64,000 bases of DNA from Rhizobium gallicum bv. gallicum R602sp (GTDB lineage: Bacteria; Pseudomonadota; Alphaproteobacteria; Rhizobiales; Rhizobiaceae): the NCBI RefSeq assembly GCF_000816845.1, contig NZ_CP006878.1, forward strand, positions 124,001 through 188,000, written 5' to 3'. This document shows, piece after piece, positions 14,373 through 33,483 of this stretch. Each line of letters starts with the position of its first letter. Position 1 is the stretch's first letter. A program made the position numbers and the translations under genes. A model generated the notes under the pieces. That model worked only from the letters and a program-made list of their open reading frames with translations. It ran no database searches and had not been told where the DNA came from.

Positions 14373-14387
14373 GTTCTTCTCCTTGAA

Positions 14388-15927: not shown

Positions 15928-15939
15928 TACAAGTCCTCC

Positions 15940-18464: not shown

Positions 18465-18581
18465 GCCCATCCTCCCTTTAGGCAGCAGCAAACCGCGCCA
18501 GGGCATCCGATGCCCGGGCCTCTTGCTGGATTGTGACTGCCGTTTTGAACGCTCCGAGAACTCACTCTGTGAACTATAGAA

Positions 18582-18606
18582 TGACAGATTGTCTGCTAAT
18601 CTGTCA
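18582..18606. promoter_or_regulatory. GntR-type operator A, upstream of the ABC transporter operon
   Basis: Perfect 9-bp inverted arms TGACAGATT and AATCTGTCA are separated by 7 bp (GTCTGCT). It lies upstream of the transporter gene start at 18464. The same motif recurs at five other regulatory regions of this island. The rest of the 495-bp gap (18465-18959) shows nothing else that I can support. Confidence 0.7.
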
Positions 18607-18959
18607 ATAGAGCCGCCATGCCCTTATCGGGATGTCGAGTTGGTTTCGATGAAATGGGTTGGTTGCTCGACGCCCTGAAGTTGTAAACGCACGTCACATG
18701 CCTGAGGTCGGTCAGAGGTTCTACGATCTGGCGGCCTTCGCCATCAAGCCAGGACCAAAGCGCTATTGAGTGTCCGGTCATGGAATGATCATCGCACCCA
18801 CTCCGATGAAGGCGACCGTTTCGATTGGGGCATACGGAACACTCCAACCTCCACGCGTCGAACGCGGAAAGTGCCACTCGATCATCCAGCCCTTCCACGC
18901 TGGGGGGCAGATCGAACTCATTCTCGATCAGCCCCTAGGCGCGCGCAACCGTGAACGGA

Positions 18960-19364
18960 TCACGGGAACTCTTCGAAGTTTTCCTTCGCGGGGTCGTGAG
19001 CAAGCCACGGTCTGGCGTGGGACAGCCAGACGTTGGACATAGGAACCGAACCAGGATCAGTGTCAAAGGTGCCTGCCCGCAGCACCTTCATCTCCGGGTT
19101 GGCAGGCCGTTCGGCATAAACGTGCGAACCACAGCGTGAGCAGAACCACCTCAGTTTCCCCGGGCTCGACTCAAAGCTGTGAAGGACGTCCTCGCCGCAA
19201 AGCAGCTTGAAGTTCTCACTCTTCACCTTGGCGGCAGTGTTATGATCGGCCGCATGGGACTTTCTGCACGTCTGGCAAAAGCAGTTCCACATCGGGCCGT
19301 CCAGTTCCGACACTTCGTACTGGACCGCTTTACATTGGCAAGATCCGAGGATAGGCATCTTCAA
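18960..19364 (-). CDS. GFA-family (CENP-V/GFA) zinc protein (134 aa)
   Basis: This is a small zinc-binding protein of the glutathione-dependent formaldehyde-activating enzyme family. The cysteine pattern is clear: GSCQCKAVQYE near residue 8, WNCFCQTCRKSHAA near 28 and RWFCSRCGSHVYAE near 73. Members bind glutathione adducts or other small electrophiles; many have no proven enzyme activity. It starts inside the end of the aminotransferase gene (4-bp ATGA overlap), so it is the last gene of the operon that begins at 24133. In this pathway it could handle formaldehyde or formate-like one-carbon products, but that is speculation. Confidence 0.85.
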   Translation of the reverse strand: MKMPILGSCQCKAVQYEVSELDGPMWNCFCQTCRKSHAADHNTAAKVKSENFKLLCGEDVLHSFESSPGKLRWFCSRCGSHVYAERPANPEMKVLRAGTFDTDPGSVPMSNVWLSHARPWLAHDPAKENFEEFP

Positions 19365-20584
19365 AATCCTTTCATCGCTCTATCGTGTTGTGGCAGTCGT
19401 GCGCTCGGAGAAAGCCACCGCTTCAGGTTCCGTGCAGCCTGCCGGATTCTGTCTTCGTTCTCCACGAAAGCCAGCCGTACGTATTCGTCACCCATCTCGC
19501 CAAAACCGATACCGGGCGAAATCGCGACCTGTGCCTTCTCGAGCACGAGTTTCGAAAACTCCAGCGAGCCAAGGTGTCGAAAATCCGGCGGTATCTTGGC
19601 CCATGCGAACATCGTCGCCGCAGGAGCTGGAACGTCGAACCCGGCATCGGCAAATGTCTTGACCAGTGTATCTCTGCGCGTCTTGTAGATGTCTCGGGCC
19701 CGCGCGGCGTCCTCCCCGTCCGAGTTTAGGGCATAGGCGGCGGCGACCTGGATCGGCGTAAATGCTCCGTAGTCCAGGTACGATTTCACGCGCGTCAACG
19801 CTCGGATGAGCCGTTCGTTGCCCACCGCAAACCCAACGCGCCAACCGGGCATAGAGAATGTCTTCGACATCGAGGAGAATTCGACGGCCACGTCGATCGC
19901 GCCGGGGACTTCGAGAACAGACGGCGGCGGACCGTCGAAATAGATTTCAGCGTAGGCGATATCCGACAGAACGATGAGATCGTGCTTCTTCGCGAAGGCG
20001 ATGACGTCCTTATAGAAGTCGAGCGTCGCGACGCGAGCAGTGGGGTTCGACGGGTAGCTTATGATGAGCGCAAGGGGCTTCGGTACCGAATGCCGCACTG
20101 CCATTTCGAGAGGCTGGAAGAAGGTCTCATCCGGCTCGACCGGTACCGACCTTATCACGCCCCCTGCCATGAGAAATCCAAACGTATGGATCGGATAGGA
20201 AGGGTTCGGACAGAGAATGACATCCCCGGGGGCGGTTATGGCCTGTGCCATGTTCGCAAACCCCTCTTTGGACCCGAGCGTCGCAACAACCTGGGTATCC
20301 GGATCAAGCTTCACATTAAACCGGCGGGCGTAATACGCAGCCTGGGCGCGGCGAAGCCCGATAATGCCCTTGGAAGCCGAATAGCGGTGCGTGCGCGGGT
20401 GCTGCACCGCTTCGCATAGCTTGTCCACAACCCATTTTGGCGTGGGAAGATCGGGATTGCCCATTCCAAGATCGATGATGTCGGCTCCGGCCGCGCGCGC
20501 GCTGGTCTTGAGGCGGTTCACCTGGTCGAAGACGTATGGGGGCAAACGCTGTATCTTGTGGAATTCCAACTTCTGGTTCCTCAT
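19361..20584 (-). CDS. Class I/II PLP-dependent aminotransferase (407 aa)
   Basis: This is a fold-type I aminotransferase of the AlaC/aspartate group. I chose the ATG at 20584 (MRNQKLEFHKIQRLPPY), which follows GGAGGACC. The substrate-binding segment IIDLGMGNPDLPTP is near residue 38. The PLP lysine lies in SMSKTFSMPGWRVGFAVG, and the preceding VLSDIAYAEIYFDG contains the conserved aspartate and tyrosine. The length is typical. It probably interconverts alanine, glutamate or aspartate with the corresponding 2-oxo acids, or acts on an amino product of the pathway. It is co-transcribed with the binding protein and LLM oxygenase genes (67 bp downstream of the former), which hints at a nitrogen-containing substrate, though this is weak evidence. 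Confidence 0.88.
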   Translation of the reverse strand: MRNQKLEFHKIQRLPPYVFDQVNRLKTSARAAGADIIDLGMGNPDLPTPKWVVDKLCEAVQHPRTHRYSASKGIIGLRRAQAAYYARRFNVKLDPDTQVVATLGSKEGFANMAQAITAPGDVILCPNPSYPIHTFGFLMAGGVIRSVPVEPDETFFQPLEMAVRHSVPKPLALIISYPSNPTARVATLDFYKDVIAFAKKHDLIVLSDIAYAEIYFDGPPPSVLEVPGAIDVAVEFSSMSKTFSMPGWRVGFAVGNERLIRALTRVKSYLDYGAFTPIQVAAAYALNSDGEDAARARDIYKTRRDTLVKTFADAGFDVPAPAATMFAWAKIPPDFRHLGSLEFSKLVLEKAQVAISPGIGFGEMGDEYVRLAFVENEDRIRQAARNLKRWLSPSARLPQHDRAMKGF

Positions 20585-20651
20585 CGTAGGTCCTCCGCGC
20601 CGACGGATGATGCCGGCGCGGAGGTCGCGGGACAACTTGGGAGGTCGTCGA

Positions 20652-21821
20652 TTACTTCTTCGGCCGCCAGGCCAGCGGATCTTCCGGGCGCTCGAAGTAC
20701 TGTGCTGCTACGTCCGCGGGCCACCATGCATCGCCCTTAGGCTCGATCCACGCCGTGGAGTTCGGATCGCAATCTTCCGGAATTGCTTCCTTCACATCGT
20801 CGATCGTGTAGGGAAGAGCCGGTCGCAGGATCGACTGGATCTTCGGCCCCTGGCCTTGGAGCGTCCGCATCATCACGTCCCACACCAGGCGAGCGTCGGC
20901 CCGCGGCGGCCAGAAGTGGAAGCTCTTGCTGATGAAGTCGGGATTGTTGCGCCAGTAGCACGCCGCCGACGCCTCGCCGCCGAGAACGATTGGCATCATG
21001 TCGCGGCCGGACTGCTGGACCGCGTTGACCACACCGTTTTCCGACGCCGACTGGACGAGGATACCTGCGATTTCGGTGGGGTTCGTCGCGAGGAATTTCT
21101 GGACTTCGACCTGGGCGACCTGATCGGTCCACTTGCCAGCGACATCGCCCACGACGGTGATGTCCTTGTACTCGTCGAACGCCTTCTTGGCACCGACATT
21201 GAAGCTGTCCGACGATGCGAAGCCCGGAATGCCCGAGACCGTCAGCACGTTGCCCTTGCCGCCGATTTCCTCCGCCAGCCATTTCGCGGCCGTGTAGCCG
21301 CCCTGGGTGTTGTTTTCGGTCGCGTTGATCGCGTAGGGCGATGTCACGTAACCCGAGAAGGAGAACACTGGGACGCCCTTGGAGTGCGCGTATTCGATGG
21401 TCTGGTTGATGGCAGTCACGTTCGAGCAGCAGATGATGATGGCATCGACGCCGTCGTCGACCATCTGGCGCATCTGCTGGATTTGCGTCGCGTCCTTCAG
21501 GTCGGACTGCGTGACGACAAGCTCAGATACCAGTCCAGCCTCCTTGTATTTCGGAAGCAGAACCTCGTTCATTTCAGTGAGGATCTGGGCACGCCACGTG
21601 TTGCCGGCATAAGTGGACGCGTAGCCGATTTTCCACGGCGGCGGCCGCTTGGCAACAAAATCCTTGAGCGGCGTACCGCCGAGGGGAATTGCCGGGTCCA
21701 AGAGCTCGTAGAGCTTCTTCTGGTCCGGTGGTAGCGAGTCTAAGCCGTCCGCGAATGCGGCGGTGGTCATCAGGCCTAGCCCGATGATCACGCTCAATGC
21801 GGTGTAAACCTTCTTCAGCAT
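20652..21821 (-). CDS. Sugar-type ABC transporter periplasmic binding protein (389 aa)
   Basis: This is the secreted binding protein for the ABC importer at 14.9-18.5 kb. I chose the ATG at 21821, which follows GGGGAGGAGA and opens a clear signal peptide (LKKVYTALSVIIGLGLMT, cleavage after AFA near residue 24). The mature protein has a ribose-binding-like two-lobe fold, with PPWKIGYAST, VDDGVDAIIICCSNVT, INATENNTQGGY and a C-terminal part rich in Trp/Pro (AWWPADVAAQYFERPED). The same length and strong similarity throughout are seen in the orphan at 4615-5784. It is encoded in the catabolic operon, not next to its permeases, between the LLM oxygenase and the aminotransferase genes. Confidence 0.92.
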   Translation of the reverse strand: MLKKVYTALSVIIGLGLMTTAAFADGLDSLPPDQKKLYELLDPAIPLGGTPLKDFVAKRPPPWKIGYASTYAGNTWRAQILTEMNEVLLPKYKEAGLVSELVVTQSDLKDATQIQQMRQMVDDGVDAIIICCSNVTAINQTIEYAHSKGVPVFSFSGYVTSPYAINATENNTQGGYTAAKWLAEEIGGKGNVLTVSGIPGFASSDSFNVGAKKAFDEYKDITVVGDVAGKWTDQVAQVEVQKFLATNPTEIAGILVQSASENGVVNAVQQSGRDMMPIVLGGEASAACYWRNNPDFISKSFHFWPPRADARLVWDVMMRTLQGQGPKIQSILRPALPYTIDDVKEAIPEDCDPNSTAWIEPKGDAWWPADVAAQYFERPEDPLAWRPKK

Positions 21822-21949
21822 GTGTAGGGTCTCCTCCCCTTCGTACATCCGCTACAGCAGTTGACGCCGTTGGCGTCGAGCCACGGAATTGGTGAAACGT
21901 GTTTCGATCTCGGATTGGTGGCGGGCGGCTTGCGCCGCCCGCGGAACGG

Positions 21950-23074
21950 TCAGTTTCGGAGGCCAGCCTGTTTCAGCAGGGGCATCACGCGGTCGTTGAA
22001 GAACGGCAGCTCTTCGTTGTAGTCGACCATCGTGAGAAGCGCGCCGTCGACGCCGGTATTGCTCAATGCGACGAGCTTGTCGGCGACTTGTTCCGGCGTT
22101 CCGACGATCGGGTAGCCGCCCCAGCCAGCGATAAAGCGCTCCTTGAACTTCTGGTACATCTCCGCCGAGTGGTTCTGTGACTGAACCTGAAGAACCTCGC
22201 AGATGTTTTCGCAGGCTTCCCAGTCGCCTTTCTGGTTCACGTAGTAGTCATAGTAGTCCTGGGCTTCCTTTTCGGTCTCGCGAACGACGACCGGGCACGC
22301 GGTGAAGGTTCCGAGTTCGCGCTTGTATTCCTCGCGAGCTAGCTCCTTCACCTTCTTCACCCAGGCTGTGCCCGATTCCATGTCCTGCATGAAGCCGAAG
22401 TTGAAGTCGCAGAACTTCGCGGTGAAGTGCAGGCCCTTGCCCGAGGAGCCGGCGCAAATGAGGACCGGGCGGCCCGCCTCCTTGTTGTAGGGCTTCGGCT
22501 CGCTGAACGCGTCTTTCACCTTGAGGAACTGGCCGTCATAGGTGACACCGTTCTTCTTCCACAAGGTGTCAACGATTTCCATCCATTCGGTGGCATATTC
22601 GTAACGGGTGTCGTGCTCCATCATAGGAACGCCGAACATCTCCATTTCCGGGGTAAACCAACCCGTCACCAGGTTCAGGCCGTATCTGCCCTTCGAAATA
22701 TTGTCGATCGTCGTCGCCATCTTCGTCGCGACGATCGGGTTCAGGGTCGGGATATGCGTCGTCGAGAAAAACTGCAGCTTCGTGGTCACGGCAGCCAGGG
22801 CCGCGGCCCACGTGAACGTGTCCATGTTCACGCCGTTGAAGTTCGTCGGCCCGCCGAAACCGCGCCACCGGGCGATCGGCACCATGCATTCCCACCCAGC
22901 CGCTTCGAGCTTTTTGGCAATTTCGACATTGTGTTCGAAAGTCGGTTCGAACGTCGATTCCGCGGTGGTGATGGCGCAAGCGCTCGAACAATTTGTTCCA
23001 AATACGCCAAGTTTTAGCTTGTTGCCGTTAAACATAGGGTTTCCGGCGGCGCGGAAATCATCGCTGGTCGTCAT
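21950..23074 (-). CDS. LLM-class flavin-dependent monooxygenase, RutA-like (374 aa)
   Basis: This is a bacterial-luciferase-like (TIM barrel) oxygenase that uses reduced FMN and O2. I chose the ATG at 23074, which follows TGGAGGAGAC. The segments RWRGFGG, LAAVTTKLQFF, TIDNISKGRYGLNLVTGW, TRYEYATEWMEIV, GQFLKVKDAFSEPKP and ICAGSSGKGLHF line up with RutA, the enzyme that opens the uracil ring by N-C bond cleavage; DMSO2 and pyridine ring oxygenases are related. RutB/RutC homologues are missing here, so uracil itself is unlikely to be the substrate. It is probably the key catabolic enzyme of the island. Reduced FMN could come from the reductase at 23624-24133 or the one at 14388-14897. A type II Baeyer-Villiger reaction is an alternative for this superfamily. 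Confidence 0.9.
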   Translation of the reverse strand: MTTSDDFRAAGNPMFNGNKLKLGVFGTNCSSACAITTAESTFEPTFEHNVEIAKKLEAAGWECMVPIARWRGFGGPTNFNGVNMDTFTWAAALAAVTTKLQFFSTTHIPTLNPIVATKMATTIDNISKGRYGLNLVTGWFTPEMEMFGVPMMEHDTRYEYATEWMEIVDTLWKKNGVTYDGQFLKVKDAFSEPKPYNKEAGRPVLICAGSSGKGLHFTAKFCDFNFGFMQDMESGTAWVKKVKELAREEYKRELGTFTACPVVVRETEKEAQDYYDYYVNQKGDWEACENICEVLQVQSQNHSAEMYQKFKERFIAGWGGYPIVGTPEQVADKLVALSNTGVDGALLTMVDYNEELPFFNDRVMPLLKQAGLRN

Positions 23075-23130
23075 ATTGAAGTCTCCTCCACAGAGTTGGT
23101 CTGTTCCCGGCCCGAAAGCCGGGGTACCAT

Positions 23131-23550
23131 TCAGATGCCCATGTCCTCGAAGACTTCCTGCGCGACGCGGAAACTGTCGATCGCCGCCGGCACGCCGCAA
23201 TAGATTGCGACCTGAAGGAAGACTTCGCGAAGCTCGTCCTTGCTGAGGCCGTTATTGATCGCGCCGCGAACGTGCAATTTCAACTCGTGGGGGCGGTTAA
23301 GGGCGGAAATCATGCCCAGATTGAGAAGGCTGCGTGACCGGCGGTCGAGGCCGGGCCTGTTCCAGATCTCGTTCCAGCAATACTCGGTGACAAGCTCCTG
23401 CATCGGCCAGTTGAACTCCGTCGCCTTGTTTACCGAAGCGTCGACATATGCACCGCCAAGAACCTCCCGACGGGTCTGCAGACCCTTCTCGAACCGTTCA
23501 CTGACGGGACGCCCATTCACTTGCGATTTCACATCGGTGGCAATAGTCAC
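23131..23550 (-). CDS. Carboxymuconolactone decarboxylase-family protein (139 aa)
   Basis: This is an all-helical AhpD/CMD-fold protein. It starts with GTG at 23550 after GAGGAGTTTGATC. It carries the CMD-like pattern LDRRSRSLLNLGMISALNRPHELKLHVRGAINNG and the C-terminal VFLQVAIYCGVPAAIDSF. There is no CxxC redox pair, so it resembles 4-carboxymuconolactone decarboxylase and not the AhpD peroxidase type. It could act on a lactone or a beta-keto acid formed after ring opening. It lies between the flavin reductase and LLM oxygenase genes, 56 bp from the latter. Confidence 0.88.
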   Translation of the reverse strand: MTIATDVKSQVNGRPVSERFEKGLQTRREVLGGAYVDASVNKATEFNWPMQELVTEYCWNEIWNRPGLDRRSRSLLNLGMISALNRPHELKLHVRGAINNGLSKDELREVFLQVAIYCGVPAAIDSFRVAQEVFEDMGI

Positions 23551-23623
23551 GGATCAAACTCCTCATTATCGGCCGAAAGGCATTTGGTGGATGTCAAAGG
23601 CCGAAAAAGCTCGGCCAAACGTT

Positions 23624-24133
23624 TCAGGCGGCAGCATCGATCAGCGCTGCCGATCGAACCAATTTCCCGTCCTCGTAGAGAAGCGGGGCAATATTCTCGA
23701 TAAACCGGGCCTCGATGACTTCGCCGAGAACGACGTCATGGGTGCCGACGGTAACGGCGGAGTTGAGGCTGCAAACGAATGCTGCCTGGGCGTCGGCAAG
23801 GATGGGTACTCCCCCAGCCGCGATCCACTCACCATGCGCAAACCTCTCCTCTCCCTTCAGCTTTCCACTGAACAGCGGAACCAAAGGCGCATGGCTAAGA
23901 TGCAGCATGTTGACCGCGAATTTTCCCGTAAGCTTGAGTGGGCCGCTGATCGAAGCAGATTGGTTGATGCAAACCAGGAGGGTCGGCGGGTCAGCCGTCA
24001 CCGACTGGACGGCGGTTGCAGCCATGCCGTAACGGGCACCTTCCCATTCCGTTGTGATCAGGCAAATTGTCGATGTGAACCGGCGCAAAGCGGTCTTGAA
24101 CGCCGCTTGCGCTGCTATTTCAGCACCAGCCAT
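23624..24133 (-). CDS. Flavin reductase of the HpaC/RutF type (169 aa)
   Basis: This is a small split-barrel NAD(P)H:flavin oxidoreductase that supplies reduced flavin to a partner oxygenase. The start follows GGGGAGGTAACC. The typical features are FKTALRRFTSTICLITT near residue 12, YGMAATAVQSVTADPPTLLVCINQSASI (flavin binding) near 36, FAVNMLHLSH near 72 and the C-terminal GTHDVVLGEVIEA. It is the first gene of the operon flavin reductase-CMD-LLM oxygenase-binding protein-aminotransferase-GFA. Two GntR-type sites lie between it and the divergent SDR gene. Confidence 0.9.
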   Translation of the reverse strand: MAGAEIAAQAAFKTALRRFTSTICLITTEWEGARYGMAATAVQSVTADPPTLLVCINQSASISGPLKLTGKFAVNMLHLSHAPLVPLFSGKLKGEERFAHGEWIAAGGVPILADAQAAFVCSLNSAVTVGTHDVVLGEVIEARFIENIAPLLYEDGKLVRSAALIDAAA

Positions 24134-24165
24134 GGTTACCTCCCCAAGTCATTTGATAGCCAAGA

Positions 24166-24192
24166 TAAGCAGATTAGCAGACAATCTGTCAA
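24166..24192. promoter_or_regulatory. GntR-type operator B1, upstream of the oxygenase operon
   Basis: The sequence reads CAGATTAGCAGACAATCTGTC, which on the other strand is the same motif as at 18582 with arms GACAGATT and AATCTG. It ends about 35 bp upstream of the flavin reductase start at 24133. Confidence 0.68.
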
Positions 24193-24208
24193 CACGTTTT
24201 ATTCGTCA

Positions 24209-24230
24209 TTGACAGATTGTCTGCGAAAAT
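24209..24230. promoter_or_regulatory. GntR-type operator B2, upstream of the SDR gene
   Basis: TTGACAGATTGTCTG is followed by a weaker right half (CGAAAAT). It lies 33 bp before the SDR start at 24263. With B1 it forms a tandem pair in the divergent promoter region. Confidence 0.6.
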
Positions 24231-24262
24231 GTTTTCTCGATACAGCGAAAGAGGAGACGATT

Positions 24263-25030
24263 ATGGATCTGGAATCGAAAGTATGTGTGGTGACCGGGGC
24301 TGGCAGCGGGATCGGGCGCGCAACAGCTGAACTGTTTGCGCGCCAGGGCGCTAAGGTTGGCGTCGTCGACGTCAACATCGATGCCGCACGAGACGTCGCG
24401 CGAGAAATGGGGACAGGTGCGATCGCGTTAAAGGCCGATGTGTCTTTGTCCGCCGAAGTCGAGGCGATGGTTAGGTCAGTTAAGGAAAAATGGGGGCGTA
24501 TCGACGTTCTCGTCAACAACGCGGGGTTCGGAATGACCGGAAACGTCACGACCATCGCCGAATCCGACTGGGACCGGATCATGGCGGTGAACGTGAAGGG
24601 GATATTCCTATGCTCGAAATACGTGGTTCCCATTATGGCGGAACAGGGCAGCGGATCCATTATTAACACGACCTCATACACGGCCGTGTCAGCCATCGCT
24701 AACCGCACGGCCTACGTGGCGTCGAAAGGCGCGATCTCGGCACTCACGAGAGCCATGGCACTGGACCACGCAAAAGACGGGATCCGCGTCAACGCTGTCG
24801 CCCCCGGAACGATCGACTCGCCCTATTTCACCAAGATTTTCGCCGAAGCGGCAGACCCGCAAGCCCTGCGGGAAGACTTCAACGCCCGTGCAGCCCTGCA
24901 CCGGATGGGCGACCCGGAAGAGATCGCCGAGGCGATGCTTTTTCTAGCTTCGGACCGCTCGCGGTTTGCGACCGGAAGCACTCTCACCGTCGACGGAGGA
25001 TCGTCGATCGGGAACCACTTGGTGCGCTAA
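24263..25030 (+). CDS. Short-chain dehydrogenase/reductase (255 aa)
   Basis: This is an NAD(P)-dependent SDR of the classical FabG-like type. I chose the ATG at 24263 after GAGGAGACG; the frame is open for a kilobase upstream without meaning. The cofactor motif TGAGSGIGRA is near residue 13, an acidic residue after strand 2 (VVDVN) suggests NAD preference, NNAG is near 89, the catalytic Ser and YVASK motif (TAYVASKGAISALTRAMA) is near 155, and the C-terminal FATGSTLTVDGG is present. It is divergent from the oxygenase operon and shares its control region with two GntR sites. It probably oxidises a hydroxyl group of the imported compound or of an intermediate. Confidence 0.93.
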   Translation: MDLESKVCVVTGAGSGIGRATAELFARQGAKVGVVDVNIDAARDVAREMGTGAIALKADVSLSAEVEAMVRSVKEKWGRIDVLVNNAGFGMTGNVTTIAESDWDRIMAVNVKGIFLCSKYVVPIMAEQGSGSIINTTSYTAVSAIANRTAYVASKGAISALTRAMALDHAKDGIRVNAVAPGTIDSPYFTKIFAEAADPQALREDFNARAALHRMGDPEEIAEAMLFLASDRSRFATGSTLTVDGGSSIGNHLVR

Positions 25031-25048
25031 AGCACATGGGTGCTGATG

Positions 25049-25083
25049 GGTGCCTCCTTCTTGACCAAGGGGAGGCACCTTTA
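25049..25083 (+). terminator. Intrinsic terminator after the SDR gene
   Basis: GGTGCCTCC and GGAGGCACC form a perfect 9-bp stem followed by TTTA, 19 bp after the stop. The following 320 bp to 25404 hold nothing that I can support. Confidence 0.75.
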
Positions 25084-25404
25084 CTGTGGCAACTACATGT
25101 CGGAAACACAGAGGCCCGCGGCGGGAAGATAGAGATCACGCGCAAGGCTGCGTGATCAGGACCCTGCGATGAGACGCCGCTACGGCATTTTTTAAACGCA
25201 TCGCCGCGCCTGATCCTTCACTCAGATATCGCAGGAATTTTTCCAATTTCTTACCGGAATTTCTCGGGAGCGTGAGGATGCCGCCCGCGATGCCGGCTGT
25301 GTCATCGCCGGGACGCCAATTGCGAAGCCTCGGTAGGCGCCCGCCCACTTTCAAATTTGATCGCCCGGCGTGTTGCACCGAGCGACCAGAGTCACTGCGA
25401 CCGC

Positions 25405-26637
25405 TTAGCGCGCGGCTTGCCGTACGAACTCGAGCCCTTTTACAAGATAGCTCCGAAAGAAATTCGGGTGTTCGCACATGGGGAAATGACCCAGCCCATC
25501 CATGACGAGGTGGAGGCATCCCGGAATAAGTTCGGCGAGCCTGGCCCCATCCGCCGGAGTGGCTGAGTAGTCATAGTCGCCCGAGAGCAGCGCCACCGGG
25601 GCGCGCGACGGGTCAATCCGGGGAGCTGTCACTGCTCCGTCGAACTCGTCGCTGTAGAAGGAAAGATCGCCTGGGTAAACTCCGGGTGCTCCCTGCGAAT
25701 AGATCCAGCTTGACCTCCTGCGCTCCCCTGCGGGGCTGAGTGGGCTCATGATCCCTCTGACATACGCCGAGTTATGAAGTGAGCCGTGTACGTTTACGTT
25801 GTGCTGGTATGGGTTCCGGCGTCCCTTGGAGCGGAAAGGTGGCTCGATCGCCACGATCCCGAGGACATGCTCCGGCCGTTCCGCGGCGAGAACCAGCGAC
25901 ATTGCCGCGCCCATGGACCCACCCGCGACAATCGCCTTTTCGCGAACCACCTGTTCGAGTATGGCCGTGCACCATTTCAGGTACAGCGATGCCGTGAGCT
26001 TGTAGGGTGCGCCGTCCCATGTCAGCGGCGGCATGGACCGACCGTGGAATGGTAGGTCAACCGCGATCAGCCTGTAGTTTTTCGCAAGCTCGGTGTCCGC
26101 CAGCTGAGGCAAGAATTGGCGGCTATCCGCTCCGGCGGTGTGGAGAAACAGGACCGGCACCCCCTCGCCTGCTTCTTCGTAATATATTTCATGGGGGACG
26201 TCATCGATATCGACGACGGCATACTGCCCCCGGATTTGACGCAGGTCGCGTTGCGCATGCTCCGCTTTCATCTCGGGGGACGTTACGACGAGCTCAATCA
26301 CCCGTTCCAGAGCCGGGCGTGCTTTCGCGAGGGCGAGCGGTGAGCCGGCGATCTCGAAGAGAGGGTTTGCAAGCTGTAACGCCGTGAAGGAGTGAAAGGT
26401 GGCGGGCGGCGGCGTCATCAGAAGCTGCTCCCAGGCGTCCGCAGTGGCCCTCACTGTCACCTGGGGGTCATCGCTTTCCCCCGAGATCGCCGCGCCGCCT
26501 TCAGCGAAATTGAGGGCGATCACCTGATCGCCGACGTAAAAGGCGATGTCCATTGTCAGGTCCGGAGTGAGCCGGGGCAATTCCCGATCCCCAAGAGCCT
26601 CCGCTATGCGGGACCGCAATTTATTAAAAGTGCCCAA
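25405..26637 (-). CDS. Alpha/beta hydrolase with N-terminal SCP2-like domain (410 aa)
   Basis: This two-part protein has an N-terminal 120-residue region that resembles a sterol-carrier (SCP2) fold (MDIAFYVGDQVIALNF, then ATADAWEQLL), followed by an alpha/beta hydrolase with the oxyanion segment LFLHTAGADSR, the nucleophile elbow GGSMGAA, an acid in GDYDYS and the catalytic His in GLGHFPM. It is probably an esterase or lactonase of the pathway. I chose a TTG start at 26637, which sits 5 bp after GGGAGG; the first upstream ATG (26673) lacks a ribosome binding site. It forms a single-gene unit with a GntR-type site 66 bp upstream. The fusion with an SCP2-like domain could help bind a hydrophobic substrate. 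Confidence 0.85.
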   Translation of the reverse strand: MGTFNKLRSRIAEALGDRELPRLTPDLTMDIAFYVGDQVIALNFAEGGAAISGESDDPQVTVRATADAWEQLLMTPPPATFHSFTALQLANPLFEIAGSPLALAKARPALERVIELVVTSPEMKAEHAQRDLRQIRGQYAVVDIDDVPHEIYYEEAGEGVPVLFLHTAGADSRQFLPQLADTELAKNYRLIAVDLPFHGRSMPPLTWDGAPYKLTASLYLKWCTAILEQVVREKAIVAGGSMGAAMSLVLAAERPEHVLGIVAIEPPFRSKGRRNPYQHNVNVHGSLHNSAYVRGIMSPLSPAGERRRSSWIYSQGAPGVYPGDLSFYSDEFDGAVTAPRIDPSRAPVALLSGDYDYSATPADGARLAELIPGCLHLVMDGLGHFPMCEHPNFFRSYLVKGLEFVRQAAR

Positions 26638-26702
26638 AGCAACCTCCCTGTTCGAACGAGCGCCAGGCCGCACGCATCGGCAGCGCCATGACTTCGAATA
26701 AG

Positions 26703-26725
26703 CAGATTATCAGACAATCTGTCAA
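26703..26725. promoter_or_regulatory. GntR-type operator C, upstream of the hydrolase gene
   Basis: The sequence reads CAGATTATCAGACAATCTGTC; the reverse strand gives GACAGATTGTCTGATAATCTG. The core TTGTCTGATAA is the same as in site F. It lies between the hydrolase start and the end of the GntR gene. Confidence 0.68.
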
Positions 26726-26745
26726 TACCGGCTGTTGCCGCTTTT

Positions 26746-27435
26746 TCAATCGCCGTCGTTTTCGGAGGTTTTACGAAGGTAGTCCAGTGCGACTTTAGCC
26801 GCCATATCGATGTGGTACTTGCAGGCTGCGGCGGCTTTCGCTCCGTTTCGGTCAGTAATGGCCGCAGCGATCTCCTTTATCTCTTCCACACTGTGGTTCA
26901 AGCGCCCCGGCTGCGTCATCGACGTCATGCGCAGGAGAGTCACCCGATTGTGGAGCGATGTCAGCATTTGCTTGACGAAGACGTTTCCACTCCCTTGCAT
27001 CAGGCAATCGTAAAACGCGGTTTTCGCCTTGATGAGCCTGCTCCCACCGCCGCTTGCCGCCGCTTCCGCAAACTCAGCAACCGCCTCATTGAGTGTATGG
27101 ATATCCTGGGCGGTTCCGTTTTCAGCGAATTCCTTTCCGGCATAGCTCTCTAGCAAAGCCCTGACGCTGTAGAGCTGAGCGGCTTCTTCGTAAGTGATAG
27201 TGCTGACGACGGGACCGCGGTGCGGATAGCTGGTAATGAGGCCCTCGGCCTCGAGTTGTCGAAGCGCCTCGCGGATTGATGTCCGTCCTACACCGATCGA
27301 CTCGCAGAGTTCTCGCTCAACGAGGCGCTGACCCGGCTTGAAACGACCGCTTGATATCGCCTGCCGCAGTTTATCTTCTACCTGAGTGCGCAATGTGGCA
27401 CTCTGTCGTGCAATCTGTAAATCCATATCACCCAT
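26746..27435 (-). CDS. GntR-family (FCD/FadR type) transcriptional regulator (229 aa)
   Basis: This is a ligand-responsive repressor or activator. The N-terminal winged helix-turn-helix reads LRQAISSGRFKPGQRLVERE and VGRTSIREALRQLEAEGLI (about residues 22-63). The C-terminal helical FCD domain binds a metal and an organic-acid-like effector; likely ligands are D in FYDCL, H in SLHNRVTLLR and H in CKYHIDMAAK. ATG 27435 or 27426 are both possible starts; a TTG at 27444 is less likely. It sits in the middle of the island. Near-identical palindromes before the surrounding transcription units, including one upstream of this gene, make it the likely regulator of the whole island with autoregulation. 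Confidence 0.92.
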   Translation of the reverse strand: MGDMDLQIARQSATLRTQVEDKLRQAISSGRFKPGQRLVERELCESIGVGRTSIREALRQLEAEGLITSYPHRGPVVSTITYEEAAQLYSVRALLESYAGKEFAENGTAQDIHTLNEAVAEFAEAAASGGGSRLIKAKTAFYDCLMQGSGNVFVKQMLTSLHNRVTLLRMTSMTQPGRLNHSVEEIKEIAAAITDRNGAKAAAACKYHIDMAAKVALDYLRKTSENDGD

Positions 27436-27512
27436 TGGATCCAAAAGTCCGTTTTACCAAGGCCGAACGCGGCCGCGCACGTCATGGTACTATATGGTGG
27501 GTTATCCTAATG

Positions 27513-27534
27513 AGACAACCCGATTGTCTGACAA
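27513..27534. promoter_or_regulatory. GntR-type operator D, upstream of the regulator gene
   Basis: AGACAA and TTGTCT arms are separated by 5 bp (27513-27529), overlapping the perfect 11-bp palindrome TTGTCTGACAA (27524-27534). It lies about 80 bp upstream of the GntR gene and fits autoregulation. Confidence 0.6.
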
Positions 27535-27586
27535 AAGCGAAGAACGCCCTAGCTTTGTCTCTTACCGGACATTCCACGCGTCCCCA

Positions 27587-28363
27587 TTACCGCAGAACCT
27601 TCGCAAAAGCGAGATCGGGTGACAGCGATCGAAAACCCGTCAGGACTGCGGGATCGTGGCCTGGAACAAGTACTCCGGACGGTCCTGATAGCTCACGGAG
27701 AGTTCGGTATCCCTCCAGTACGTCGGCGTAATCGGCGAAAAGCGGAAAGACGTCGTCATGCTCCAGATAGCGTTGAAAATGGAGTGCGTCCGATGCGATG
27801 ACGACGATTTCATCGCCATCGTCCAGCCTCACGACCTGGAGGCCTTTGGAATGGCCGCCGACGAGATGGATGGTGAGCCCCTCCATAATCTCGCCGTTCC
27901 CGTCGTGGAAGCGCATGCTGCCGGAAAACGTCAGACGGACCGCATCGACGACGGCGTCCACTGCAAAGGGACGCCGAAGACGATCATGGCACATGCATCG
28001 TCCTGTACCGTAGGCCATCTCCCGATCCTGCAAGTGGAACAGGGCTTCGGGGAAGTCCGCAAGGTTTCCCGCGTGATCATAGTGGAGATGCGTGATGACG
28101 ACGTCGGTAATGGACGATGCGGAAATCCCGAGCTGGCGAAGCGCCTCGACCGGATGGATCAACATGGTCCTCCCGCGCCTTTCAGCCTCCTGCGGGCTAA
28201 ACCCGGTGTCAACCAGGACCAGACGTTCACCATGGCGGATCAACCAAACGAAATACTCGATCCTGCCCGGGGCGTCGTGGGGATCTCCTGCTTCCAGGCC
28301 GAGTTCGCCAACGGGGCGAACCGCAGTGCCGTAATGTATCGCCAGGACTTTCCAGTCGCTCAA
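27587..28363 (-). CDS. Metallo-beta-lactamase-fold hydrolase, AHL-lactonase-like (258 aa)
   Basis: This is a dinuclear zinc hydrolase of the AttM/AiiA lactonase group. The metal motif THLHYDHAGN (HxHxDH) is near residue 91, a further His lies in LVGGHSKGLQVV, and the C-terminal Asp and His lie in IASDALHFQ and LVPGHDP. The start is TTG at 28363 after GAAGGAGCGAG, with good spacing. It is the third gene of the operon MBL-ADH-MBL. A true quorum-quenching role is possible, but the location points to hydrolysis of a lactone or ester intermediate. Its sequence is distant from the MBL protein at 29522-30415. Confidence 0.9.
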   Translation of the reverse strand: MSDWKVLAIHYGTAVRPVGELGLEAGDPHDAPGRIEYFVWLIRHGERLVLVDTGFSPQEAERRGRTMLIHPVEALRQLGISASSITDVVITHLHYDHAGNLADFPEALFHLQDREMAYGTGRCMCHDRLRRPFAVDAVVDAVRLTFSGSMRFHDGNGEIMEGLTIHLVGGHSKGLQVVRLDDGDEIVVIASDALHFQRYLEHDDVFPLFADYADVLEGYRTLRELSGPSGVLVPGHDPAVLTGFRSLSPDLAFAKVLR

Positions 28364-28384
28364 ATTCTCGCTCCTTCCGCAGGC

Positions 28385-29509
28385 TCAGGGAACCAGCAGA
28401 TGCCGGATCACCTCGCCACGGTCCAGCCGGTCGAAGGCCTCGTTGATTTCCTCAAGCGGGCCGGTGCTGGACAGCAGTCTCTCCACGGGCAACCGACCTT
28501 TGAGGAACAGGTCGATATAACGGGGAATATCGCGCGAAGGCACGCAGGACCCCATGTAGCTGCCTTTGATGATGCGTTCTTCCCCGACAAGAGGAAGCGG
28601 CGAGATCTCGAATTTGGTGTTCACGTTCGCCAGACCCGCTGTGGCTGTCGTGCCGCCGCGCCGCGTAATGCCATAAGCGGTTTCGAACGCTTTGCTCGAC
28701 CCTGCCATCTCGATGGCGTAGTCCACTCCCCCGCGTGTCGCTTCCTTGACCTCGCCGACCACATCCGGCGAGGTTGCCAGGAAGGTACGCGTCGCGCCCA
28801 GCGACTTAGCCAGCTCAAGCTTTTCCGGCATCAAATCGATGGCAACGATCTCGCTTGCCCCGCTGGCCACCGCTCCGAGGACCGCCGACAAGCCCACGCC
28901 CCCAAGGCCGATGACGGCGGCCGACTGTCCCGGCTTCACGCCACACGTGTTTACGACCGCACCGACGCCTGTCATGACGGCGCATCCGAACAGGGCCGCC
29001 ATCGTGACGTCCACGTCTTTGGTGATCTTGACGACCGAGTGCGCCGACACGACCGCGTATTCCGAAAACGCCGATACGCCGCTGTGATGGTTGATATCGT
29101 AGCCGCGAAGACGGATATGCTTGCTACCGTTCAACAATGTCCCGGCGGCGTTTGCGCGATAGCCAGGCTCACAGAGGCTAGCGCGTCCTCCCGCGCAGTA
29201 ATCGCAGTGTCCGCAGATCGGCAGGAACGACATCACAACGTGATCGCCAACCTTCACTGTATCGACACCGGGTCCGATTTCTTCGACGATGCCGGATGCT
29301 TCATGCCCCAACGCGACAGGCAGCGGGCGGGGCCGGTCGCCATTTATCGCCGACAGGTCGGAGTGGCACACACCAGCGGCCTTGATTTTAACCAGGACCT
29401 CAAGATTGCCCGGAGGCGTCAGATCGACGGTCTCGACACTGAGAGGTCGCGAACTTGCATACGGCTTGGGAAGCCCTGACTCTCGGAGAATGACGGATTT
29501 CATCTGCAT
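28385..29509 (-). CDS. Zinc-dependent alcohol dehydrogenase, class III-like (374 aa)
   Basis: This is a medium-chain NAD-dependent alcohol dehydrogenase. Catalytic zinc ligands lie in GVCHSDLSAING and LGHEASGIV; the structural zinc site has the four-cysteine loop CGHCDYCAGGRASLC; the nucleotide site is GLGGVGLSAV near residue 195, followed by IDLMPEKLELA. The length is that of class III/benzyl alcohol-type enzymes. It lies 12 bp after the upstream MBL gene and 21 bp before the next. It probably oxidises an alcohol intermediate to an aldehyde or ketone. The substrate is not predictable. Confidence 0.92.
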   Translation of the reverse strand: MQMKSVILRESGLPKPYASSRPLSVETVDLTPPGNLEVLVKIKAAGVCHSDLSAINGDRPRPLPVALGHEASGIVEEIGPGVDTVKVGDHVVMSFLPICGHCDYCAGGRASLCEPGYRANAAGTLLNGSKHIRLRGYDINHHSGVSAFSEYAVVSAHSVVKITKDVDVTMAALFGCAVMTGVGAVVNTCGVKPGQSAAVIGLGGVGLSAVLGAVASGASEIVAIDLMPEKLELAKSLGATRTFLATSPDVVGEVKEATRGGVDYAIEMAGSSKAFETAYGITRRGGTTATAGLANVNTKFEISPLPLVGEERIIKGSYMGSCVPSRDIPRYIDLFLKGRLPVERLLSSTGPLEEINEAFDRLDRGEVIRHLLVP

Positions 29510-29521
29510 TGTCGGGTATTC

Positions 29522-30415
29522 CTATCTCGAGAGCATCTGCATGGCGGCGGGTACGTAGCGGAAGCCTTCCCGCTCCCGGGCGACGTTGCCGAGTCCGGGC
29601 CACGCAAAGTGATAGGACATCACTGGTATGCGGTCTGTCGCGAGCATATCCAGCACCCGGGTGCGCGAGCGCGCCGAGAGCTTGGGATCGGTGTCGTACT
29701 TGAACTCCATCCACGGGCGTTCCATCAGCAGGATATGATGATGGGTGAGATCGCCGAGGAAGCAGAGCCGGTCGTTGTCCGATTGCATGAGGAAGCAGAA
29801 GTGGCCCAAGGTGTGGCCTGGAGCGTGCACCGCCTGCACGCCCGGCAGAAACTCCTGACCGTCCACGAAATGCGTTATCCGATCACGGTGTGGAAGAAGG
29901 TTCCTCCGGGCATTTTCCACCTGGGCCTTGAAACCGTCATCAAGCTTGCCTCCGTCGGTCCAGTCATCGAAGTCGCTTTCGCTTATGAAGATCTCCGCGT
30001 TCGGAAAATTAAGCTTTCCGTCCTGATCGCAAAGGCCGCCGGTGTGGTCGATGTGTGCGTGGGACAACACCACGGCATCGACTTCTAACGGGTCGATCCC
30101 TGCCTCCTGCATGCTCTTCAGCAGGCGGCCGGTCGTCGGCCCGAATATCTTCGACGTCCCCATCCCGGTGTCAAACAGGATGGTCTTTCCGTTGATTTTG
30201 ACCAGGGGGATGTTCTGCTCGAGGGTCACCGACGAACTTGACAGGAAGTTCCTGTCGAGCATTTCCGTCACCGTGGCCGCGTCGACCCCGAGGAAATTCT
30301 CCCGCGGGTCGCCCAGTTCCAACGGTCCGTCCGAAAGTACCGCTATTTCGCCGCTTCCGAACTTGAACGGATAGAAATAGGGCAACTTAGTCTGATGCGC
30401 TTGGTCATTGAGCAC
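29522..30415 (-). CDS. Metallo-beta-lactamase-fold hydrolase (297 aa)
   Basis: This is a cytoplasmic zinc hydrolase, first gene of its operon. It starts with GTG at 30415 after GGGAGGATAAGC. The metal motif SHAHIDHTGG is near residue 114, then APGHTLGHFCF and FLGDLTHHHILL supply the other ligands. It is closely similar to the exported protein at 36963-37961, which has an added Tat signal. The family includes methyl-parathion-hydrolase-like and lactonase enzymes. The operator at 30447-30473 is 32 bp upstream, so this operon should be tightly controlled by the GntR protein. Confidence 0.9.
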   Translation of the reverse strand: MLNDQAHQTKLPYFYPFKFGSGEIAVLSDGPLELGDPRENFLGVDAATVTEMLDRNFLSSSSVTLEQNIPLVKINGKTILFDTGMGTSKIFGPTTGRLLKSMQEAGIDPLEVDAVVLSHAHIDHTGGLCDQDGKLNFPNAEIFISESDFDDWTDGGKLDDGFKAQVENARRNLLPHRDRITHFVDGQEFLPGVQAVHAPGHTLGHFCFLMQSDNDRLCFLGDLTHHHILLMERPWMEFKYDTDPKLSARSRTRVLDMLATDRIPVMSYHFAWPGLGNVAREREGFRYVPAAMQMLSR

Positions 30416-30446
30416 GCCGCTTATCCTCCCAGATTGGCTGCACTAT

Positions 30447-30473
30447 TTGACAGATTGTATGAAAATCTGTCAA
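30447..30473. promoter_or_regulatory. GntR-type operator E, upstream of the MBL-ADH-MBL operon
   Basis: Perfect 10-bp arms TTGACAGATT and AATCTGTCAA are separated by 7 bp (GTATGAA). This is the longest perfect version of the motif in the window, 32 bp before the GTG start at 30415. Confidence 0.72.
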
Positions 30474-30499
30474 CACAATATTGGTAATCGTCTACGACG

Positions 30500-33016
30500 T
30501 CAGGAAACGACCGAAAGCACGTGACCCCTCGGCCTGCCGATGTTGAACTGTTCGACCTGCTGCATCAGCCGCTGGGTCTCTTTTGTGAGTTCCTGAGTGG
30601 CGGCGTGGGCTTGCTCGGCGATGGCAGCGTTTCGCTGTGTGCTGTCATCGATCTCGCCAACGGCCTGGTTCACTTCAATAAGGGAAGCCGCCTGGTCCCT
30701 GGCCGCCGCAGCGATAAGCTCTACCCTTTCGGAAATTCCGGCAACATTCGACGATATGGCAATCAGCACCTTGCCCGCCTCGTTCACCAATCGCGATCCG
30801 GAGGCGACTTCCTCGGTCGATCTCGCGATGAGTTCCTTGATTTCCTGGGCGGCGAGAGCCGACCGCTGGGCAAGCTCCCTGACTTCCTGGGCGACGACCG
30901 CGAAGCCCTGCCCCGCTTCTCCAGCTCTCGCGGCCTCGACGCCAGCATTGAGTGCCAGGAGATTGGTCTGGAACGCTATTTCGTCGATAACGCCGATGAT
31001 CTGCGAAATGCGGCCGGAAGCCGCTTCTATACGGCCCATAGCGTCGACCGCGTTCGTGACCACTGAAGCAGACGCATCCGCGGCCTGCTTGGTTTCCTTT
31101 ACAAGCCGGGCTGCGGCTTGCGCCTGCTCTGTCGACGAACGCACCGTCGCGGTGAGTTGATGAACCGCAGCCGCGGTCTCCTCCAACGACGCGGCTTGAC
31201 GCTCGCTGCGGCGGGAGAGATCATCGGCGCCACTGCTGAGATTGTCTGCATTTTGCCGAATGAGCACGATGTTGCCGCGAAGTTCCGACATCGTCGCCTG
31301 CAAACGCAGCAACGAATTGTTGAAGTCCTTTCGCAACTGTTCCAGCCGCCCGGAGAACGGTTGATCGATCGTGCTCGAAACATCACCGTTGGATAACCTC
31401 TCCAGCCCAGCGGCGAGACTGTCGACGGCGTCGCCGATCTGTTTGTCGATCTCAGCTTTCTCCGCCTCGTTGTGCCGACGTTCAGCTTCGGAAGCCGATC
31501 GTTGACGATCAGCGTCGTTCTCGATCTCGATTTTCCTCGCGGCATTCTCCCTGAAGACACAGAGTGCCCGGGCCATTTCTCCGAGCTCATCAGCGCGCTC
31601 AGAACCGCCAATCTCGATGTCAAGGTCCCCTTCGGACAAACGCCGCATGTCGTCGGTCAACCGGACGACAGGTTTCTTGAAAGTCGCAATCATCCCGAAG
31701 CCAGCGAGAAGCGCGACGAGGACGCCTGCAAATGTCGTGATGAGGCCAATGGCATTCGCGTAAGCCGTCTCTTCAATGGCCTTTGCGCGCTGGGCGTCGG
31801 CAAACGTCGTGAGGTGGCCCCATATGGTGTTCAACTGGTCTGTCGTTTGCCTATATTGCGCACGCCTGACTTCCGAGATCTCGACGAGCTTCGCACTGTC
31901 CTGCGTCATACCCTCTACCGCCGGAGGGACCGTATTCTGGACTGCCTTAAAAAGGTCGAGGTCGGAAGCGGCACTCCAAATGTCCAATATCTCCTTCTTC
32001 GTTCTGTCGAAGTTCTGGACGAGCTGCGCGCGGTTTTGTTCGGTAGGGTCGGCTATGAAGCGCGCAAGGTTTATCCTGATGAGATAGCTGGAGTCCGAAA
32101 GTCTTCGGCTGCCGTCCAAGGCGCTGCTGATCTTCGCCAAACGTTGGTCGAGACCTGCGAACTCGACGATTGCTTTCTTTGTTTGCTGGTTCGCCACCGC
32201 GTTAATCGCGACGGAGATTTCCTTGAACGCGGACATTGCCGTGTCGAGGCCCACGGCGTTGTTCGATGCGGCGCCCTGCGACAGAAGTTGTGTTACGCTT
32301 TTCACCGCGCCATCGACCGAGCTTGACAGTTTTGTGTCGTCCGACGGCAAGGAAGCCCTCAGATTTCGGGCGCTCCGACGCAACTCGCCCACTTTGCCGC
32401 GCAAATATTTGACTTTCAGCTCGGTCGTTCCGGCGGATTGGTAGCCCGCGGCAAGATCAAGGAAGAAGGTTGCATAGCCTGTCACCCTGTCGGCATCGCG
32501 CAACATCGATTTGGCGGCGCCCTCGGACTGCTCGCCGGACTTCCTCAACTCGTCAGCTAGCCTGAGCATTTCATCCTGCGACCAAACCAGCGATTCAGAA
32601 TGATTGGCGATCGAGGTTATCAGTTGCTCTTCGCTTTCATGGATGCTCCAGAGAGAGCCAAAATTGTCCACCACGTCCCGCATGATCGCGTTTGCCGACA
32701 GGAGGCCTTCGCTTTCCGCCGTAGCTCCGGCATTCGTCACTAAAGCCTGCAGATGCGATTGCTGGGCGAGCAGGTCAGCCTTCACGCGATCGCGCCTTTC
32801 CTCCGACGCCTCGTCGAGAAACTCTCTCATCGAGGCGGAGACGTCACGGAAACCTGAGAGCACCTGCATCACCTGGCTCGAGGTTTCCAGGCGGCTTTGT
32901 AGGAGACCTGCGGCGTAGTGCCCCAAAAACCCCACCGCGCAAATGCTGATTATGAAAGGCAGTACGAAAATGATTACTTTGGTCTGTAGCCGGAAACGGG
33001 ACAACAGCCTGTCCAT
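30500..33016 (-). CDS. Methyl-accepting chemotaxis protein (838 aa)
   Basis: This inner-membrane chemoreceptor is paralogous over its full length to the one at 1882-4395. The first membrane helix is near residues 10-32 ([17 protein letters not shown]), the periplasmic sensor runs to about 418, the second helix is near 419-445 ([19 protein letters not shown]), then come HAMP and the signalling coiled coil with tip [16 protein letters not shown] near 680. It has no CheR pentapeptide. It is the last gene of the island on the minus strand and has its own upstream region with a GntR-type core (33126-33151), so it is probably induced with the catabolic genes. It likely senses the island's substrate directly or through a binding protein. 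Confidence 0.93.
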
Positions 33017-33125
33017 TGTGGTCGATCCTTGTCCATAGGCGGTGAAGAAACTTCATCAATCGGGATCCGCCTCCGATGGAAGCATCGAATCATCAATGAC
33101 GACACGAAAGCTGCGCGACCGAGGA

Positions 33126-33151
33126 TTGTCTGTCAACAGATTGTCTGATAA
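33126..33151. promoter_or_regulatory. GntR-type operator F, upstream of the chemoreceptor gene
   Basis: TTGTCTGTCAA (33126-33136) runs into CAGATTGTCTGATAA (33137-33151), two overlapping copies of the half-site. It starts 110 bp upstream of the receptor start at 33016. Confidence 0.6.
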
Positions 33152-33483
33152 ACATTGCTAAGGTTCAAACTGTCTCACGAACTTGCGGAGGAATAACTCC
33201 GTAACAGAACCGGCGCTGCCGCAGCACAACTTTCACTGCTGACATCGATCAAATCGCGATGTCCTTGTTTTCAGTGGAAAGCGGTGACTGCATCTCGGCT
33301 ATGTGAAGGCTGCGAACATGTCGTCGTCCTCGCGACGGCGGGACGCGACGCCTTGGTGAACAAACGGGCCGTCCTTCTCATGGATGGACGGCTCCATGGC
33401 GCCGAGATCACCAGCTTCCCCAATATGCATCTCGAGATGCCGATCTGGGAAAGGTAAGTATTGAGATTGAGGAAGCAGAGAAG
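33152..33483. other. No supported gene upstream of the beta-glucosidase
   Basis: A plus-strand frame ending at about 33457 reads like a protein tail (VVVLATAGRDALVNKRAV, then LHGAEITSFPNMHLEMPIWER) but has no start or recognisable family; it may be the stub of a lost gene. Nothing else is seen. Confidence 0.3.

Follow-up and report, generated by a model that had tools for sequence, protein, structure and literature searches.

A predicted plasmid-borne regulon of two GntR paralogues in bean-nodulating Rhizobium, with a proposed operator in the promoter spacer

Passages that cite Rosenblueth et al. (1998, Mol Gen Genet) describe the teu genes of Rhizobium tropici as an exudate-induced transporter and mention neither a regulator pair nor an operator nor a linked oxygenase pathway. 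Specifically, the available passages report that bean exudate induces teu and that nodulation competitiveness requires it (PMC3557214), that the ATP-binding cassette (ABC) genes of Rosenblueth et al. were higher in bean than in maize exudate in R. phaseoli RNA-seq data (PMC8581550), and that teu, which two symbiovar phaseoli strains carry on their symbiotic plasmids, was not found in the symbiovar mimosae strain Mim1 (PMC4125696). In the passages returned by a literature search on teu and bean exudate, which did not reach the original 1998 description, no regulator, operator or substrate is named for teu, and a term search of the main text of the Sinorhizobium fredii GR64 plasmid paper gave no mention of teu or GntR (PMC3224233). 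Here, we analyse a 64,000-nucleotide stretch of Rhizobium gallicum bv. gallicum R602sp (the window; C2:124001-188000 of the 203,748-base replicon C2, NZ_CP006878.1, in a genome of 7,311,190 bases on 4 contigs), in which a palindromic motif recurs around a gene for an FCD-type GntR regulator. The teu orthologues of this genome lie outside the window on the same replicon, with the predicted operator immediately upstream.

Regulation of this kind has precedents. Atu1419 of Agrobacterium fabrum is likewise an FCD GntR repressor of a catabolic region for plant compounds (hydroxycinnamates), with three target genes, a palindromic GT...AC operator (ATGTATACAT) and a second regulator, HcaR, in the sections of the paper available (PMC7797058). 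The two regulators here are paralogues. Two GntR-type regulators, GntR1 and GntR2, likewise act jointly on one catabolic gene set in Corynebacterium glutamicum, another organism with other genes, according to the accessible part of that report (PMC2230225). On the enzymatic side, the Rut pyrimidine pathway likewise combines a luciferase-like monooxygenase (LLM) with a flavin reductase and has an alpha/beta hydrolase and dehydrogenases close by; it differs in that the RutA and RutF models score far under cut-off for the proteins here.

The comparisons described below point to a genuine GntR regulon of this known kind, large and well conserved: a plasmid-borne catabolic regulon of bean-nodulating Rhizobium that would be controlled by two FCD-type GntR repressors through a core in the promoter spacer, a reading to which we give a probability of about 0.8. 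In the proposed mechanism, GntR1 and GntR2 would bind the 15-bp core GATTGTCTGATAATC, which, judged by sequence pattern, lies in most regulated promoters between a consensus -35 hexamer, TTGACA, and an AT-rich -10 hexamer spaced 17 bp from it, and the bound repressor would block RNA polymerase. A bean-exudate compound, or an intermediate made from it, would release the repressor. Release would turn on uptake through three ABC systems of the CUT2 type, teuBAC1C2 among them (with operon extents as predicted), together with an LLM oxygenase dependent on flavin mononucleotide (FMN), a flavin reductase, flavin supply, hydrolases, dehydrogenases and possibly chemotaxis.

Predicted operator sites, regulators and their conservation

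An earlier note on this DNA had placed seven copies of the motif in regulatory gaps of the window, and in all seven stretches the letters read as described. The genome-wide scan, set as a check beforehand, found the motif clustered and not spread randomly: 10 places in the 7.31 Mb lie within one mismatch of CAGATTGTCTGMYAA, nine at C2:105-157 kb and one on C4 (binomial 5e-19 for at least nine of ten within 53 kb, a stretch picked after the hits were seen). The 25-base palindrome, with up to three mismatches, occurs at five places in the genome, every one on C2 within the same 52-53 kb stretch. A 28-column weight matrix trained on 11 C2 sites scores 17.8-45 at these sites versus a maximum of 3.7 on C2 outside 104-158 kb, and 10 of the 11 stay above everything outside the island when left out of training. 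Across 148 genomes of the genus, the exact 15-mer TTGACAGATTGTCTG occurs in 33 and a reversed control pattern in none. Chance recurrence of the motif is excluded by the mismatch scans, the weight matrix, the leave-one-out test and the reversed control; the recurrence is far from chance. The sites in the window, with their scores, are:

18579-18606, minus strand: predicted operator/promoter site of the ABC operon; TTGACA directed toward the gene, core flipped (40.5)
24167-24194, minus strand: predicted operator/promoter site of the oxygenase operon, flavin reductase first (42.0)
24207-24234, plus strand: predicted operator/promoter site of the gene for a short-chain dehydrogenase/reductase (SDR), divergent from the oxygenase operon; partner site 40 bp away (39.4)
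26700-26727, minus strand: predicted operator/promoter site of the alpha/beta-hydrolase gene (45.1)
27514-27541, minus strand: weak site upstream of GntR1, placed at 27513-27534 by the earlier note; core without TTGACA (17.8 trained, 1.0 left out)
30445-30472, minus strand: predicted operator/promoter site of the operon for a metallo-beta-lactamase-fold (MBL) protein, an alcohol dehydrogenase (ADH) and a second MBL protein; TTGACA on both strands (35.8)
33126-33158, no strand assigned: site in the gap between the chemoreceptor (minus) and beta-glucosidase (plus) genes; two overlapping TTGTCTG boxes (32.0)

That no copy lies outside a 15-kb stretch, as the earlier note had it, holds for the window and fails for the replicon, where further copies are located 7-19 kb ahead of the first base of the window. 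The regulon is, on this evidence, predicted to be larger, at about 53 kb and about ten operons, including teuBAC1C2 and a second block outside the window with genes for a 3-hydroxyisobutyrate-dehydrogenase-like protein (HIBADH), a carboxymuconolactone-decarboxylase (CMD) family protein, a hydrolase, an ABC system and an aldehyde dehydrogenase (ALDH):

C2:105221: site before the 3-hydroxyisobutyrate-dehydrogenase-like gene
C2:106216: site before the second CMD gene
C2:116328: site before an alcohol dehydrogenase gene
C2:116814: site directly before teuBAC1C2 (substrate-binding protein, ATPase, permease, permease)
C2:116914-121576: teuBAC1C2 orthologues, by their domains and the gene order teuB-A-C1-C2

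The orthologues are annotated teuB, teuA, teuC1 and teuC2 in Rhizobium etli CIAT 652, where tblastn puts the substrate-binding protein on teuB; the teu names also stand in the S. fredii GR64 record, and the gene set is also present on pRtrCIAT899a. By tblastn, the teu genes adjoin the site in CIAT 652, CFN 42, CIAT 899 and R. croatiense.

The motif goes with two regulator genes:

26746-27435, minus strand: GntR1, FCD-type GntR regulator (PF00392 74.3 bits, PF07729 94.6 bits, both over cut-off; helix GVGRTS)
C2:104537-105199, outside the window before the left block: GntR2, FCD-type GntR paralogue, 76% identical to GntR1

The gene and domains first read at 26746-27435 are thus confirmed, and the assumption of one regulator gives way to a pair. 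GntR1 reaches 130.9 of the 271.5 bits required by TIGR03338, the PhnR_burk model for a phosphonate regulator. The recognition helix of close homologues reads GVGRTS(I/V)REA(L/M)RQLEAEG. The sites before the regulator genes lack TTGACA: the GntR1 site is weak by sequence alone, yet conserved, standing at the same place in CIAT 899, CFN 42, CIAT 652 and R. croatiense (core identity 0.76 versus flank 0.25), while GntR2 is preceded in this genome by a two-mismatch remnant of the core only and in the CFN 42 lineage by a weak TTGACA-less core copy. The core copies before GntR1, and before GntR2 in the CFN 42 lineage, would serve autoregulation. The metal-binding D..FH motif often present in FCD proteins reads K..FY in both paralogues; their ligand site may differ in metal binding.

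Regulator and operator travel together. A GntR homologue (E 1e-70 or better) is found in 33 of the 148 genomes, always in two or four copies with one in each gene block, and a comparison of the two lists by genome handle shows that these are the same 33 genomes that carry the 15-mer, with neither feature among the other 115. Within 1.5 kb of each of the 18 close GntR matches (at least 58% identity, helix GVGRTS; several loci near-identical) lies a site with a score of 13 or more, whereas 24 of 25 distant homologues (37-46% identity, mostly VSRT) reach at most 5.5 within that distance, with L035 (14.6) a partial exception; for a 44%-identical homologue in L090, the nearby site scores 10.1. Several distant homologues (L021-L031) carry a TTTTGTATGTCAA-like variant near the gene, which looks as if the operator frame had changed along with the VSRT helix.

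Sites also precede orthologous genes in the CFN 42/CIAT 652/R. croatiense lineage, Pararhizobium arenae, a Shinella plasmid, a Mesorhizobium bin and a Rhizobiaceae bin, as well as in four Pseudomonas genomes, one Burkholderia and one Acidisoma genome. In the gap between the flavin-reductase and SDR genes, two back-to-back sites stand 38-40 bp apart in the scanned Rhizobium loci and Pararhizobium; a similar pair (38-39 bp) precedes the flavin reductase in four Pseudomonas loci, with a glutathione S-transferase gene on the opposite side in L088, the pair is 42-43 bp apart in the Rhizobiaceae and Mesorhizobium bins, and one site was found in Burkholderia. Around the dyad, core identity is 0.67-1.0 versus 0.14-0.42 in the flanks over 26 ungapped pairs with C2, both members picked for having a site; for the oxygenase-operon site it is 0.76-1.0 in six aligned loci chosen in the same way. 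Taken together, the comparison strongly supports the reading as a GntR regulon, through the shared presence of regulator and motif in 33 of 148 genomes and through sites ahead of the same genes in Rhizobiaceae, Pseudomonas, Burkholderia and Acidisoma, and corrects the earlier account in its extent, its number of regulators and its view of the arms. In Rhizobium sp. R634 (L060, L061), the window block appears twice on one 539-kb contig, and G275, with matching coordinates, has two copies per GntR, which may reflect a true duplication or an effect of assembly.

The arrangement of one GntR copy per gene block in all 33 carriers also fits a regulon in which GntR1 and GntR2 share the core and split roles, through different ligands or with one of them an activator, so that two regulons interleave. 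A single close GntR adjoining the HIBADH-CMD-ABC-ALDH block in Shinella points the same way, while the nearly identical recognition helices of GntR1 and GntR2, and the likeness of the sites of the two blocks, as judged by eye, argue against it. We regard such a division of labour as a possibility of some weight that nevertheless falls clearly short of even odds.

Probable promoter layout and the identity of the outer arms

The arms TGACAGATT and AATCTGTCA had been taken for equivalent operator arms, which they are not: TTGACA mostly faces the gene. Specifically, 51 of the 62 scored sites have it directed at their assigned gene and 11 have it directed away, an unselected count that comprises 85 rows minus 11 identical contexts and 12 unscored rows (no target within 330 bp, or a tie). 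Three of the 11 have the opposite-side gene cut off or outside the query set (L140 and L088, with L090 by likeness), two are the chemoreceptor/glucosidase site and two have no TTGACA-like hexamer on either strand. Nine promoters have a flipped core, its stronger half directed away from the gene (those of ABC and of MBL2, each in several genomes, plus three more), and in all nine TTGACA is nevertheless gene-facing; three of these also read TTGACA on the other strand and three are one base off, leaving three that discriminate clearly. An AT-rich hexamer follows at a spacer of 17, with a mean of 2.66 of 6 TATAAT matches, the highest value among spacers 9-33. A promoter -35 hexamer is the best reading of the outer TTGACA arm, and the order of -35, core in the spacer and -10 suggests a repressor that would exclude RNA polymerase.

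A list of 47 sites compiled by hand bears on the same question. It left out the GntR1 and GntR2 sites, the site shared by chemoreceptor and glucosidase, the one before CMD2 in the CFN 42 lineage, several low scorers and near-duplicate loci; five rows (two labelled '?SDR2', three 'left') were oriented by TTGACA itself and L093 by a gene 412 bp away. Among these 47 sites, the left box reads T 47, T 47, G 38 and T 44; for FadR-subfamily sites, the consulted part of a survey gives TKGT/ACMA boxes with 3 nt between GT and AC (PMC4494728).

Several observations weigh against a spacer operator bound by a FadR-like repressor pair. In the right box, the first position is A in 33 of the 47 sites, the second T in 25 or C in 16, the third A in 36 and the fourth A in 35, giving ATAA more commonly than the ACAA of FadR-type sites. 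Four of the sites that face away from their assigned gene have no explanation, and CMD2 of CFN 42 stands out among them as a clear exception. The -10 signal at spacer 17 is weak, and spacer 8, inside the core, gives a higher value; CTATAT, the rhizobial -10 form, has no peak at spacer 17. The GntR1 upstream site falls to its left-out score alongside 11 other C2 places that score as well or better. The 33 carriers belong mostly to two island lineages and hence are not 33 independent events, and seven of them have no NodC over cut-off. Finally, the GntR pair could still act as an activator rather than a repressor.

The alternative that the entire 25-27 bp palindrome is one wide operator, or a core plus an extra half-site, with TTGACA contacted by protein and no part of a promoter, draws on the ABC and MBL2 sites, which are near-perfect palindromes including both TTGACA/ATGACA arms, on the additional, weaker boxes that Suvorova et al. 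describe 7-12 nt away from the centre in sites of the GntR family (PMC4494728, in the pages consulted), and on the same four unexplained sites. It is unlikely, since the mirror of TTGACA is poorly kept, with C at +11 in 7 of the 47 listed sites versus TTGAC in 46-47 (a selection that favours TTGACA, sites without it having been left out beforehand), TTGACA is gene-facing in the great majority of scored sites, flipped-core promoters included, and the GntR1 site has the core without TTGACA. That another island regulator, such as the AraC-type protein at 12042-13142, binds the motif with the GntR genes as bystanders is highly improbable: one AraC-type gene does lie in the window and others in relatives' islands, but the DNA flanking the sites, examined over at most 10 kb on each side in Pseudomonas, Burkholderia, Acidisoma and the Mesorhizobium bin and over 20 kb on each side in Shinella, holds a GntR and no AraC relative, and the core TTGT-N3-AYAA has some resemblance to the FadR-subfamily boxes.

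The predicted set of controlled genes

With spacer repression by the GntR pair as the preferred reading, the controlled set in the window would comprise the following genes:

13569-14897, minus strand: RibB (3,4-dihydroxy-2-butanone 4-phosphate synthase; 13569-14372) and FMN reductase, end of the ABC operon
14914-18506, minus strand: CUT2-type ABC ATPase (16905-18506) and two permeases
19361-20635, minus strand: aminotransferase (LL-diaminopimelate aminotransferase model over cut-off)
20652-21848, minus strand: CUT2-type substrate-binding protein, oxygenase operon
21950-23074, minus strand: LLM monooxygenase, nearest solved relative RutA
23131-23550, minus strand: CMD family protein
23624-24133, minus strand: flavin reductase, RutF-like, below the RutF cut-off
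24263-25030, plus strand: SDR dehydrogenase
25405-26673, minus strand: alpha/beta hydrolase
27587-28363, minus strand: MBL-fold hydrolase 1
28385-29509, minus strand: zinc alcohol dehydrogenase
29522-30415, minus strand: MBL-fold lactonase-like hydrolase 2 (MBL2)
30500-33016, minus strand: methyl-accepting chemotaxis protein
33484-35928, plus strand: GH3 beta-glucosidase, which may be an additional member (with annotated orthologues in CIAT 899 and GR64)

The gene calls made earlier for the FCD-GntR regulator, the luciferase-like oxygenase, flavin reductase, SDR, MBL-ADH-MBL operon and chemoreceptor are right. By their domains (CUT2 ABC systems, LLM oxygenase and flavin reductase, RibB and FMN reductase, CMD, lactonase-like MBL, hydrolases, dehydrogenases and an ALDH resembling succinate-semialdehyde dehydrogenase, SSADH), the products would take up, oxidise and hydrolyse a small compound, with RibB and FMN reductase read as flavin supply. 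Naming the pathway from its parts was rejected, as the LLM, RutF-like, CMD, MBL2 and hydrolase proteins all score under the named equivalog cut-offs. The LLM oxygenase reaches 195.3 of 498.3 bits against the RutA model TIGR03612, the flavin reductase 121.5 of 254.75 against RutF, far under cut-off, and the CMD protein 151.7 of 155.7 against PcaC TIGR02425, just under cut-off, with 143.9 for the second CMD copy; among the best 25 families listed, curated NCBIfam cut-offs were passed solely by the LL-diaminopimelate aminotransferase, the RibB domain, the SSADH subfamily and two generic SDR models. Searches against solved structures gave broad hints only, with MBL2 leading to organophosphorus-hydrolase/dihydrocoumarin-hydrolase-type enzymes and the substrate-binding proteins to ribose-type binding proteins.

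The site at 33126, assigned by the earlier note to the chemoreceptor, may serve that gene, the beta-glucosidase at 33484 or both. It has no TTGACA in the usual register for either neighbour and one toward the chemoreceptor between its boxes; a site of this type lies 320-328 bp upstream of the beta-glucosidase in CIAT 899 and R. croatiense and about 326 bp upstream here, although the R. croatiense gap is nearly identical to that of this genome and conservation there is uninformative. The R. croatiense chemoreceptor beside the site (L051, about 3088-3471) appears cut down to an N-terminal remnant.

Further observations concern the enzymes. RibB relatives accompany this LLM oxygenase in distant clusters of Pseudomonas, Burkholderia, Caballeronia and a Pseudonocardia bin (L088, L093, L098, L130), which suggests an unusual flavin demand. 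One Pseudomonas version (L088; 2225-3961, 7448-8137) has glutathione S-transferase under the operator with gamma-glutamyltranspeptidase adjoining, and a Rhizobium oxygenase operon holds a GFA-family gene (L140, 43609-44007); these genes hint at a glutathione step. The LL-diaminopimelate-type aminotransferase sits inside a catabolic operon. Additionally, a third MBL-fold protein at 36963-38066 is 54% identical to MBL2, and its N-terminal extension looks like a Tat (twin-arginine translocation) signal.

Relation to the bean symbiosis

The island goes with nodulating strains and is not confined to them: NodC exceeds the cut-off in 61 of the 148 genomes, of which 26 belong to the 33 carriers and 35 to the other 115 genomes (table read by eye). 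A homologue at 1e-40 is present in 84 records of a plasmid collection, and a Phaseolus host or source is given for 33 of the 40 listed, a link that is only suggestive, bean isolates being heavily sampled. A more ambitious proposal is that the GntR pair is a dedicated sensor of a Phaseolus-type exudate compound, or of its LLM product, and that one spacer operator switches on chemotaxis, uptake by Teu together with two other ABC systems, and a flavin-dependent pathway that had not been described before, as a host-specific nutritional mediator on transferable plasmids of bean symbionts of several genera; we advance this tentatively, as somewhat less probable than its opposite. In Pseudomonas, Burkholderia and Acidisoma, the regulator and the operator are likewise accompanied by parts of the pathway core, and the substrate is thus probably not limited to bean.

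The value of the regulon lies in linking the bean-exudate transporter of 1998 with an oxygenase pathway and with two candidate repressors. The common operator points to candidates for both the regulator pair and the enzyme set and supplies, in the teuB promoter, a reporter for seeking the exuded compound, and it makes the control of teu directly testable.

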